This document shows positions 58,014 through 64,000 of a stretch of DNA of 64,000 bases, in pieces. A program made the translations under genes and the position numbers. The stretch spans positions 1-64,000 of the IMG/VR virus record IMGVR_UViG_3300024177_000003. The stretch is one strand, 5' to 3'. The stretch's first letter is position 1. Each line of letters starts with the position of its first letter. Below the pieces are notes generated by a model. It made no database searches. It worked only from the letters and a program-made list of their open reading frames with translations, and was not told where the DNA came from. The stretch is from a virus.

Positions 58014-59551
58014 CAGACGATACTCAATTGCGGGTTGACCCAGACCGTCGTCGACGCTTTGCCGAGACGAATCAATCCACGGACCCGGCCAGCCCGCTGC
58101 GGCGTGAACGCGACTTGAAGCAGCTGTTTCTGCGGCGTTGCCGGAGGATTGTTCCAGGTGTTGCTGGACGCCGGCAGCGCGCTCGCCGCTGCCAAGATCG
58201 ATGACAAACTGTCCACGAAATTGGCCATCGGATTGCCGCTTGATCCCATATATTCCAGCGACAACCGGATATCAGTATTGTTCAGTGATCCGGAAGAAAT
58301 AAGCTCCACCGTTGCCGTCTTGGATGCGCCGACAGCCGTGTTCTCGACATCGAGCGTGAAGCAAGGCAGCGGCATGCTAGCAAAATCGGATCGTACGGAC
58401 GATACCAATTTCAGACTATAATTGCCGATATCATCCACCGCGCCATTGGCAAGTGTCGCGCTGCGATCCGTCGTGACCGCACCGGCCGGTGTATAGCGCT
58501 CGTTGAGGACATTGCTGCCGTCCCAACAATTGACAAGTTCGACCTCATCTGCAGCGCACGTAGCCGCCGCCGGTGTACCATAGCGGGTAACAGCCGCAGC
58601 GATCTTGCAGCTATCAAACAAAACTTTACTCACAGGACTTACCGCTGGATTCGCCGCAACAAGCGTTCCTGTAACAGCACTTAGATCGACACCTCGACAC
58701 GTAATCGTGTTAACTCCCGTATTGAGGGTAAACAATGTTGTCGGCGGCGTGCTTCCACCGACCGCCGACGGTGTGTTCACCCATGTAAGATCGAATAGCG
58801 TAGATGCGCATCCAATAAAAGATGCGCTTGTACTGTTAAATTGCACTGTCGTGTTATCAAATGTCACTTTTGCAGAGCTTGTGGTCATCAGACGTGAGGT
58901 CGTTGTACCGTTTAAGTTAAACGTGCAGTTCTTGAAATACGCACTCTTCGATCCGATGTTGGCCAGATAAATATTTGTAGTTGTTGGAGAACCCGACACC
59001 GTAAAACTGAAACCTTCCCAATAGGTGTTCACGATAGTATCAAGCACCAGCGAATTTGTTCCTGTCAGCGTCAATGTAATCGTCGCGCCGGCTTGGCTGT
59101 CCGCCGCAACCGGTGGAACAGACCCAGCGCGATTAACAGATAAGACTTGAACCAAACCGAAACCGCTATTGCCAAACCCGTAGTTTAAATTCGCAGAAAA
59201 ACTATCGACGCTATCACTGCTGACAAAAACACGATCGCCAGCAACCGCGCGTGTCCCCGTATTTGCCGTAAAAACATAAAGAGTCCCTGCCGCTGCACTC
59301 CATCCGTAAGCAGACTGCCCCGTGACATTGGTAAACGTCGCACTGCCTGATAACGTTGTTGAATTATTACCGGTATTCCAACCAGGCTCCGTCGTCCCGG
59401 ATGTCCCCGCCGTCGTACACCGAAACGCGTATTCCCGCCCTGCAGCTGGAGCCGCCAACGGCCGGATGATCTGCCCGACCGAATACGCTGTCGATGCCGC
59501 CCACTGCGGGATCGCTGCCCACGCTACGGATGATGCATACCAGTCGCTCAT
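58013..59551 (-). CDS. Tail spike/fibre with N-terminal carbohydrate-binding-like module
   Basis: The 512-residue protein has an N-terminal module [15 protein letters not shown]...[17 protein letters not shown] of the CBM5/12-like type common in phage tail proteins. It is followed by a repetitive beta region ([68 protein letters not shown]) that reads like a right-handed beta-helix. The C-terminus has [27 protein letters not shown]. It probably binds or cleaves a surface polysaccharide; no catalytic residues can be assigned. Confidence 0.75.
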
Positions 59552-60726
59552 TGTAGCGCTTTCACGACATAGCTATACGTACCGTTAACACCCCACATCG
59601 ACACCGTAAACTTATGTCCACTGATCGTATCCAACGCATCTCCCGTGTTCGCACTCACTGTAAATCCTGAGAAAGTCACAGCTCCGGCGCTGCCCTGGTT
59701 CACGAGCATCAGGATGCATGAGCCATCATGAGTCGGCGCCGTGATCGTAAACGCACCGTTATTGTTCACCCACTGCATCGGATTCAAACTGAAATCGACC
59801 GTGATGTTGCCCGTCGCGTACTGGTACGCCGTCGCATAGACCCCGCCGGATAAATTCTGCCCCGTCGCCCCGAGCAGCATCGCGCCGGGCTGGTACGGCC
59901 CGGTCGGGCCGGTGCCGAGCGGCCCGGTCGCCCCGGCCGCCCCGGCCGCACCGGTCGGCCCCGTCGCCCCCGTGGTCGAGGCGAATCCGGGCGGCCCCGT
60001 TACACCGGTCGGCCCGGCAGGTCCCGTGGCGCCAGTATTGGTGGCGTCACCAGCCGGACCTGTCGGGCCGCCGAGCGGTCCGGTCGGCCCGGGAGGTCCA
60101 ACCGGACCGAACCCCGTTGGTCCGGTCTCGCCAAACGGTCCCGTCGGACCAGTGTTACCTGTCGGCCCCGAATTTCCCGTCGGCCCAAGATTACCAGTCG
60201 GCCCTGTCGTACCGGTGACGCCGGTCGGACCGGTGTTCCCCGTCGGCCCGAACGGCCCAGCAGGACCCGTCGGACCGGTACCGGGCGGACCCGTGGACCC
60301 CGTCGGCCCGGTCGCACCCGTGTTGGTCGCCGACCCCGGCGTGCCCTGCGGACCGGTCTGCCCGACACGGCCGGTCGGCCCGGTGGCGCCAGTATTGGTC
60401 GCCGCTGCGGCCGGACCCGTCATCCCGGTCGGCCCCGACGGACCTGTCGGACCAGGTACGCCGGGGCTTCCCTCACCGGTCGGCCCGGGAAAACCCGGAG
60501 GACCGGTCATCCCGGTTGGACCGGTGACCCCCGGCTCACCGGCGCCGGTCGGGCCGGTGTTGCCGGTCGGACCAGTCGATCCGGTGGCCCCTGTCGCGGA
60601 TATCGGCCCTGTCGGGCCGGTATCTCCGGTCGGACCACCGTAGGCACCTGTCGGTCCGGTCTGACCGTGAACGACAATGACTGGCCGGGTCTGGATGATG
60701 GGAGGATCGTTCGACGGGTATGACAC
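59548..60726 (-). CDS. Collagen-like tail fibre protein 3
   Basis: The 392-residue protein starts [24 protein letters not shown], with about 260 residues of G-x-y triplets ([20 protein letters not shown]). The C-terminal head [35 protein letters not shown] ends [20 protein letters not shown], a beta head common on phage fibres. It is coupled to the spike gene by a four-base overlap. Confidence 0.85.
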
Positions 60727-62474: not shown

Positions 62475-63378
62475 TTACCCGCCGGAGATGACCTGCGCCT
62501 GACAGATCGCCGTACCGTCGACCACCTGATAGCCGTAGACCTGCAGTCCGCGGAGGATCTGACCGAACGTCAACTCGGAACGCAGCGTCTCGACCTTGCT
62601 GATCTGCGAGGCGAATGTAAGCCCATGGGCATGCCCGGCGAAGATCGGCTGCTCACCGGCGGCAAAGTTGACCGAATCGGTCGTGCTGTTGGGCATCAGG
62701 TTGCTGACGTACAACGTGAACCGATCGATCATCCCGAGGCGGCCATTGCGCAGAATCGAGACGGAGTCGCCCGACAGATAGGCCTGACGGAGTTCCGACT
62801 GCTTGATCTGACGACCCGCCCATGCCGGCATGATGACCCAGCGGCCTTGCTCCGGAATGTTCTGTTCGTCGAGCGCCTGCCCCATCTTCAACAGCAGGTC
62901 GATCAGGTTGGTCTGCCCCGAGGTCGCGCCCTGGCCGACGGTGACAATCGGCGTGCCCTTGATGCCGAGATTCAAATTCCCCGACAGGACACCCGCGGTC
63001 GCGCCGCGATTGAAGGAGTTGCACTGGTTGACGATGCCGTCAAGGACATCGCGGTCGACCACGATCTTCAGCTGTTGCGCGGCATCGTCCGACCACATGG
63101 AAAGATTGTTCAGATCGCTCTGAACCTCCATGACGTCGTCGAGCACCAAGCTGAAATATTTACCGATGCCGATGTACAGCTCGATAGAGCCGCCCGTCGG
63201 ACGATCGAGACCCAGCAGGCCGTCAGCCAGGTAGTTGCGGATCGTGATCGTGGGCTTCGTTCGGATCTTCACCCGATCGCCCATATTCTTGATCTCGCCT
63301 TCGTAGTCCGTGTTGGAAATCGCGGCCAGGACCGTGCTCGCGTAGAATTTCTCGACGAGCTTCGCCGACCAGATTTCC
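62475..63378 (-). CDS. Major capsid protein, exon 2
   Basis: The frame is open from 63378 to the stop at 62475 and continues the HK97-like or coat-type capsid protein begun by exon 1. It reads EIWSAKLVEKFYASTVLAAI, NTDYEGEIKNMGDRVKIRTKP, SIELYIGIGKYFSLVLDDV, then RGATAGVLSGNLNLG, PEQGRWVIMPAWAGRQI and FGQILRGLQVYGYQV. No start codon fits its beginning, and an in-frame TGA lies a little upstream at about 63396-63398, so it must be joined to exon 1 by splicing. About 300 residues are coded here. Confidence 0.85.
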
Positions 63379-63963
63379 CAACTGTTACTACGCGGAGGTC
63401 ACTCGCGTTCAACTCGGTCACCCGAGCGGAGCAGCCATTTCTACTGCTCTCCCCATGTCGCCATGGGGGTCGGACTGTCGCATCAGCGAAGCGATACGCT
63501 CCGCCGCCCTCTCACTCAGTCTCTGCGGGTCCAGCTTCATAGCACGCAGCTCTTCTGCAAAAGCCGCGCGCGCCTGCTCCATCCCCACATAGCCGGCAGT
63601 GGTGAAGCGGCCGGACGCATTGTCCAACCACCACAACACGAGCTTTGCCTGCTCTGCTTTCAAGATCAGGTGCGGAAGGATCATACCGAGAATCCGACGG
63701 ATTTCCGCGCCGCTCAGCCATTCGAGCGACCAGCTGTTTTGCTGGTTCCGCCCACTCGCTTTGCGACTGACGAAATGACCGCCAAACTTACCGTGAAGCA
63801 TCTCCCCCAAGGAACGGCAGCCATCAGCCATGCACATCCGCACACGCGGACGAACATAAAGCCGATTCCTACCTTTCTTCGGATACATACGCTGCACGTC
63901 GATACAACCTTCCCCGTCGAAGAGCCCGGCTAAGTATTCCGGTGTCATGTAGACCCCTCGTAT
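63379..63963 (-). other. Probable group I intron in the capsid gene
   Basis: The 585-bp insertion separates two in-frame parts of the capsid protein. If spliced after CC at 63964 and before GGAA at 63378, the junction codes KFIPEIWSAK. Near the 3' end (minus strand) there is a GACTG...CAGTC pairing that fits P7. It is followed by CCCCATG-GCGA-CATGGGG and CTCGG-GTGA-CCGAG, two stems with GNRA tetraloops, and GAGCAG...CTGCTC. P1 can form between exon AUUCC and intron GGGGU. The intron core would overlap the C-terminal part of the LAGLIDADG ORF. The precise ends are inferred. Confidence 0.65.
63418..63948 (-). CDS. LAGLIDADG-type homing endonuclease in the capsid-gene intron
   Basis: The 176-residue protein starts MTPEYLAGLFDGEGCIDV, the LAGLIDADG helix with its active-site acidic residue. 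The fold continues with YVRPRVRMCMAD, FGGHFVSRKASGRNQQNSWSLEWLSG, ILGMILPHLILKAEQAKLVLWW and a helical C-terminus. A single LAGLIDADG motif implies a homodimer. GAGGGG precedes the ATG only 15 bases into the intron. The endonuclease would cut intron-free capsid genes and spread the intron. Confidence 0.85.
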   Translation of the reverse strand: MTPEYLAGLFDGEGCIDVQRMYPKKGRNRLYVRPRVRMCMADGCRSLGEMLHGKFGGHFVSRKASGRNQQNSWSLEWLSGAEIRRILGMILPHLILKAEQAKLVLWWLDNASGRFTTAGYVGMEQARAAFAEELRAMKLDPQRLSERAAERIASLMRQSDPHGDMGRAVEMAAPLG

Positions 63964-64000
63964 GGAATGAACTTAGCGAGCTTTACTGGTTCCCTCGGGT
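63964..64000 (-). CDS. Major capsid protein, exon 1 (partial, continues beyond the window)
   Basis: On the minus strand the window edge reads, in frame, PREPVKLAKFI and then CC of a proline codon. Joined to exon 2 this gives a continuous capsid N-terminus. If not spliced, the frame would read YEGST and stop within six codons. The start codon lies outside the window. Confidence 0.65.

Follow-up and report, generated by a model that had tools for sequence, protein, structure and literature searches.

In the process termed core creep, a stop codon mutates to a sense codon and the open reading frame (ORF) extends into the core of its intron (Edgell, Chalamcharla and Belfort 2011, PMC3073962). ORF/core overlaps of up to 81 nucleotides (nt) have been catalogued, including a LAGLIDADG case that runs over P6 to P9 (PMC3073962). 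Introns within phage capsid genes are also on record, and in LittleE, of the Cluster J mycobacteriophages, splicing of the capsid intron was shown by RT-PCR and protein sequencing (PMC3706429). The first-pass annotation of the locus described here had held both an ORF/core overlap and the choice of the capsid gene to be notable; the overlap is real, but core creep (PMC3073962) and capsid introns (PMC3706429) have both been published, so the type is already known and the locus is less unusual than was claimed. From sequence comparison we conclude that a viral major capsid gene very probably carries a mobile group I intron at the site FIP/EIW, and that the LAGLIDADG ORF of this intron shares 117 nt with the ribozyme core.

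An insertion in the major capsid gene

The window, a 64,000-nt stretch, comprises bases 1-64000 of a 69,682-bp IMG/VR virus record; its end (64000) falls within the intron, and the stretch beyond it was fetched from the record (locus L002). The capsid gene lies on the minus strand, and the main part of it (62475-63284), which matches Phage_capsid_4 and PHROG 267 major head protein, extends upstream to 63377, and homologues place exon 2 (EIWSAKLVEKF...) at 62475-63377 (minus), with 63377 as its first base. Exon 1 (record 64193-64065, minus) lies beyond the window. It was recovered from a 46-codon ORF, MPPWGNAMPIPITGFPGATSGSSPPITPVGSSPNNLQATGFIPSPF, located just past the window and directly after a scaffold-like gene, and it ends ...NNLQATGFIP at record 64065. 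An uninterrupted ...LQ[AS]TGF[IV]PEIWS[AG]KLVEKFYAS... occurs in 71 of the 80 capsid homologues that were retrieved. The empty site is therefore FIP|EIW, where exon 1 ...LQATGFIP joins |EIWSAKL, and the insert measures 687 nt. On the basis of this empty site and of the splice sites, the whole intron occupies record positions 64064-63378 (minus), with 63378-64000 inside the window. The predicted spliced peptide reads ...NNLQATGFIPEIWSAKL....

The first-pass annotation had the geometry wrong, as the end of the window cuts through the intron. It had proposed a compact insertion of 585 bp with only 15 nt before the endonuclease ATG, a 5′ exon inside the window that ends in KFIP, a core confined almost entirely to the last 70 codons of the ORF, and a junction peptide KFIPEIWS. 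The frame that prompted this reading, PVKLAKFIPYEG, is in phase with EIWS and resembles the capsid motif FIP. It has no start codon, however, its bases form P4, P6 and P6a of the intron, and intronless homologues join LQATGFIP to EIWS, so that we give the compact geometry next to no chance. 'KFIP' is intron sequence and the predicted junction is LQATGFIP|EIWS; 116 nt of the intron precede the ATG and 40 nt follow the ORF stop. As to the core, its 3′ half does lie in the ORF, within the last 39 codons, and the remainder is found in the 116 nt upstream of the ATG.

Predicted structure of the ribozyme

To describe the core we aligned 11 sequences with the ORF loop cut out. RNAalifold found P1, P3, P4, P5, P6/P6a, P8, P9 and a P9.1-like stem unaided, with two-sided changes in 29 of 60 pairs. 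With the P7 pseudoknot added, 97.3% of helix cells pair, against 82.1% in shuffled sequences and 37-46% with slid partners, and the same alignment holds 28 covarying pairs against 16.6 in shuffles, a count that none of 500 shuffles reached. MAFFT misplaced gaps in P4 and P8 in some rows, so for P8 and P6a a second count at fixed offsets was made. These covarying core helices, together with the empty site in 71 homologues, uphold the original assignment to a group I intron in the capsid gene.

The 116 nt upstream of the ORF hold P1, the P10 guide, P4, P5 and the 5′ strands of P3, P6 and P6a; the first 64 nt of the intron, beyond the window, contain the P1 loop, the P10 guide, the P1 3′ strand, the 5′ strands of P3 and P4, and P5. 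Inside the window, with all features on the minus strand, the P4 3′ strand CCCG (63996-63999) pairs with CGGG (record 64021-64018) and is followed by the P6 5′ strand GGG (63992-63994) and the non-coding P6a 5′ strand CCAG (63986-63989), the partner of ORF codon 139 (CTG) and the next G. The P6a 3′ strand CTGG (63531-63534), which is codon x of the motif MKxDPQRLSERA, opens the dual-coding stretch. Further along the ORF come the P6 3′ strand CCC (63527-63529), the P7 5′ strand GACTG (63517-63521), the P3 3′ strand GAGAGGG (63507-63513; partner CCCTCTC, record 64035-64029), the eight-pair P8 hairpin (63484-63506, with 63506-63499 paired to 63491-63484 and two-sided changes in 7 of 8 pairs) and the P7 3′ strand CAGTC (63473-63477), the first three bases of which are an in-frame CAG codon. 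The P9 hairpin CCCCATG-GCGA-CATGGGG (63451-63468) and a P9.1-like hairpin GAGCAG...CTGCTC (63429-63449; two-sided changes in 6 of 6 pairs) complete the part inside the ORF. A P9.2-like hairpin read from the sequence, CTCGG-GTGA-CCGAG (63413-63426), carries the ORF stop TGA in its GTGA loop. The GACTG/CAGTC P7 pair and the GNRA-capped stems that had been noticed in the 3′ part of the ORF are thus confirmed.

At the 5′ splice site the end of exon 1, CATCCCU, pairs with intron GGGGAUG to form P1, leaving a U.G pair that is present in 12 of 12 sequences, and a terminal G precedes exon 2 in 11 of 11. The six bases 5′ of the P1 guide strand pair with the start of exon 2 as P10; in the window copy these are GATTTT (record 64054-64049) and GAAATC (63372-63377, minus). 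Across the alignment 61 of 66 P10 positions are paired and three pairs show two-sided changes, with a one-base shift needed in two sequences and with the P9 and P10 strands of the fixed-offset count picked by eye, a bias towards pairing. The guide tracks exon 2 changes in L092 (GAAT with ATTT), L110 (GAG with CTT) and L089, and is imperfect in L083, in L109 and, past the third pair, in L110.

Bypassing by the ribosome or an intein would each also yield a mature capsid protein free of the insert. The capsid frame, however, runs into a TGA three codons inside the insert, which excludes an intein, and the covarying group I helices and exon-matched P10 are accounted for by splicing and not by bypassing; such a route is in our judgement extremely improbable. 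We therefore retain a group I intron, for which we propose the following course. The capsid transcript would fold into the ribozyme, which would cut after the U of exon 1 that forms the U.G pair in P1; exon 2, aligned by P10, would be joined at the terminal G, restoring the capsid frame.

The Rfam group I covariance search, suggested as a check at the outset, returned no group I intron match for the window copy, a miss that is most likely due to the split of the intron by its ORF; the ORF-less relatives reach 17.7 and 22.2 bits with RF00028, under the curated gathering cut-off of 50. The RF00028 gathering score sets a threshold for detection and does not define the class, and it is known to fail where an ORF splits the core. 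An Rfam Bacilli-1 match on the window (E=0.27) was dismissed as chance.

Could the intron have decayed, with splicing lost and the capsid gene inactive in this assembly? Endonuclease decay does occur: the ORF-less relative L004 has the same core in a 302-nt intron and has lost most of the endonuclease. In the window copy, however, every helix of the core is preserved, no stop interrupts the ORF, and the capsid frame downstream is unbroken, with 77-87% identity to relatives, which leaves decay a small residual chance beside an active intron.

A predicted LAGLIDADG endonuclease

As had been proposed, a LAGLIDADG ORF lies upstream of the capsid 3′ exon (63948-63418, minus; 176 amino acids). Its motif LAGLFDGEG and its predicted fold identify it as a putative single-motif homing endonuclease of the I-CreI type. 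D11 and E13 of the motif, which bears the catalytic acid, are invariant in 11 relatives. Pfam LAGLIDADG_1 matches at E=0.0081, below Pfam's own cut-off, and the best Foldseek match of the model (mean pLDDT 83.8) is I-CvuI (E=1.1e-8), followed by I-CreI and I-MsoI. The PHROG label 'HNH endonuclease' was rejected for this ORF on motif and fold; the match at 63418-63948 (minus) to PHROG 5046, which is described as HNH, is a LAGLIDADG protein of I-CreI fold, and the label may be wrong.

Confidence in the alignment-based model extends to about residue 157, and disorder sets in at residue 162; residues 162-176 have pLDDT <50 and are missing in many relatives. The helix encoded by P3/P8 (residues 145-157) belongs to the confidently predicted fold, so the model indicates that here the overlap serves the protein as well and that only the P9-encoded C-terminal end looks dispensable. 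The ORF is inserted in the P6a loop, and the predicted endonuclease would cut intronless capsid alleles, whose repair would copy the intron into the FIP|EIW site.

One stretch of DNA predicted to encode protein and ribozyme

The overlap of the endonuclease ORF with the ribozyme core, already recognized in the first-pass annotation, spans 117 nt (63534 to 63418), the last 39 codons of the ORF, and includes P6a′, P6′, P7, P3′, P8, P7′, P9 and P9.1. The same nucleotides would therefore specify both the C-terminal end of the endonuclease and the ribozyme's 3′ half-core, and translation of the core would be expected to compete with its folding.

The conserved MKxDPQRLSERA may instead be kept for the endonuclease as ordinary protein coding, with RNA pairing secondary. 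The model predicts the helix at residues 145-157 with confidence, and the free-standing endonuclease copies found beside an uninterrupted capsid gene (n=3) keep the ORF length up to this P3/P8-encoded helix. Against this, residue x varies freely among Leu, Val, Gln, Met, Arg, His and Ala, and its codon still pairs with a strand outside the ORF: codon x and the next G complement the four bases after the P6 5′ strand, upstream of the ORF, at 44 of 44 positions in 11 sequences. In 45 further loci, which contain close relatives and are not 45 independent events, the complementarity holds at 170 of 180 positions, where the maximum of 5000 shuffles was 152. Synonymous sites are constrained as well, with third-codon-position differences of 0.14 across P6a/P7/P3 compared with 0.58 in the N-domain; in the tail, differences are near-equal over the three codon positions (0.32, 0.36, 0.41). 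The pairing of codon x with the non-coding strand, present in nearly all intron loci, is absent in the three free-standing copies, which have also lost the P7/P3 sequence and the QRLSE motif. Protein coding as the main constraint thus seems to us improbable, and selection on both products of the dual-coding stretch is the reading we adopt.

Free-standing endonuclease copies lie directly upstream of an uninterrupted capsid gene in L091/L124 (2501-2974), L120-L122 and L128; they may be intron losses in which the endonuclease was retained.

A stop codon within P7

ORF ends vary among the relatives, with the stop as early as 8 nt ahead of the start of P7′ and as late as 189 nt beyond it. We counted P7 states over loci whose ORF is in phase with P7′. 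Where P7 is GACTA/TAGTC, the ORF stops at the TAG (11 of 11 in-phase loci); where it is GACTG/CAGTC, the codon is CAG and the ORF continues for 9-189 nt (12 of 12, the window copy included). That P7 state goes with ORF end is a consequence of the genetic code; the biological content is that P7 is paired in both states. On the well-supported branches of the endonuclease tree the CAG state requires at least 5 changes and the TAG state at least 6, and the P7′ state has therefore switched repeatedly.

Many relatives thus have a TAG stop in the P7 3′ strand, and replacement of an A-U by a G-C pair would keep the helix and turn TAG into CAG, after which the ORF would extend into P9, as in the window copy; this direction of the switch is one that we infer. 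As far as sequence comparison goes, the A-U/G-C switch in P7 is a concrete route for core creep. A bolder proposal, that the overlap is obligate and ancestral in a phage-wide lineage of capsid introns rather than a late creep, and that P7 acts as a stop-codon switch whose TAG or CAG determines the distance that ribosomes travel into the ribozyme, coupling endonuclease translation to capsid splicing, is tentative and in our view rather unlikely.

In L110 (minus strand, 3′ end of the intron) and L180 the endonuclease stop TAG directly abuts capsid exon 2, as the final three bases of the intron, so that the ORF there covers the entire 3′ half of the intron.

Distribution among phages

The insert is common to the relatives L004, L010, L023, L083, L089, L090, L092, L094, L109 and L110. 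A profile scan of IMG/VR returned 119 relatives; the 80 that were kept contain 57 non-duplicate loci, 38 of them with the capsid exon E[IVLW]W[SA] directly downstream and three with an intact capsid gene. The capsid sequences at these loci have diverged widely, as EIWSDEI... and EIWSGKL... illustrate. A scan of GTDB genomes found no relative, and the endonucleases present in a phage collection were all distant, with less than 60% identity. Among named capsids the nearest (64%) occurs in four phages, including Rhizobium phage RHph_TM3_14A, where the capsid gene is annotated as continuous. The pattern match L096 was set aside as chance, in an unrelated gene.

The capsid region is an intron hotspot, with further insertions after ...LVEKF and ...SNTDY, at L132 (2440-4498), L134 (2400-3700), L119 (2440-3700), L129 (2420-3000) and L040 (1298-2480); some capsids have two or three introns at neighbouring sites, with only about 33-45 nt of exon between them. 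The two-motif LAGLIDADG ORF of L134 ends KTDPQRLNE, which resembles the overlap motif of the window ORF. L099 (6900-7220, minus) is an ORF-less ribozyme relative that sits in another capsid gene and has a long additional 5′ domain between the likely splice site and P3. In L079 (2390-2440) the capsid gene has no N-terminal segment or evident start codon, and the TAA of the scaffold-like gene is directly followed by ATTCCGGAAATCTGG; this arrangement is a deletion, an assembly error or an unusual start. Elsewhere in the window, 59548-60726 (minus) encodes a collagen-like Gly-X-Y repeat protein that matches phage tail-fibre families.

Discussion

Through the overlap, the joint evolution of a protein and a ribozyme in shared nucleotides can be tested in natural replicates: codons change to match RNA partners that lie hundreds of bases distant, and the signature is lost in copies that left the intron. 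The core-creep hypothesis thereby becomes directly testable. In phages that are very divergent, the capsid motif P|EIWS emerges as a site targeted by introns again and again, and unannotated introns split capsid genes at P|EIWS in metagenomes.

Neither the P7 switch mechanism nor family-scale evidence of this kind was found in the papers on core creep and capsid introns that we consulted. In T4 td/I-TevI and in the LSU rDNA intron of Synechococcus lividus, as here, the ORF of an endonuclease in a peripheral loop reaches into the core, and the S. lividus protein is likewise a LAGLIDADG endonuclease, with an 81-nt overlap over P6/P7/P3/P8/P9.0/P9 (PMC3073962). In contrast to those core-creep cases (PMC3073962), the overlap here is 117 nt long and lies in a phage capsid gene, codons covary with the non-coding strand over about 55 loci, and the ORF ends are toggled by a pair switch in P7. 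LittleE shares a group I intron with a homing endonuclease in a phage major capsid gene, but the capsid family and the site differ, and its endonuclease is of the HNH type and is transcribed in the opposite direction (PMC3706429), and therefore has no sense-strand overlap of the kind described here. I-CreI, I-CvuI and I-MsoI resemble the predicted endonuclease in their single LAGLIDADG motif, their group I intron carrier and a fold that aligns over about 155 residues. They differ in host, a chloroplast rather than a phage, and in sequence, with 14-23% identity in the structural alignment; in the capsid intron, moreover, the C-terminal helix and tail are encoded by the ribozyme core. Judged by its sequences, the ORF/core overlap of the capsid intron is a new variant of a published overlap type, with unusually strong comparative evidence.
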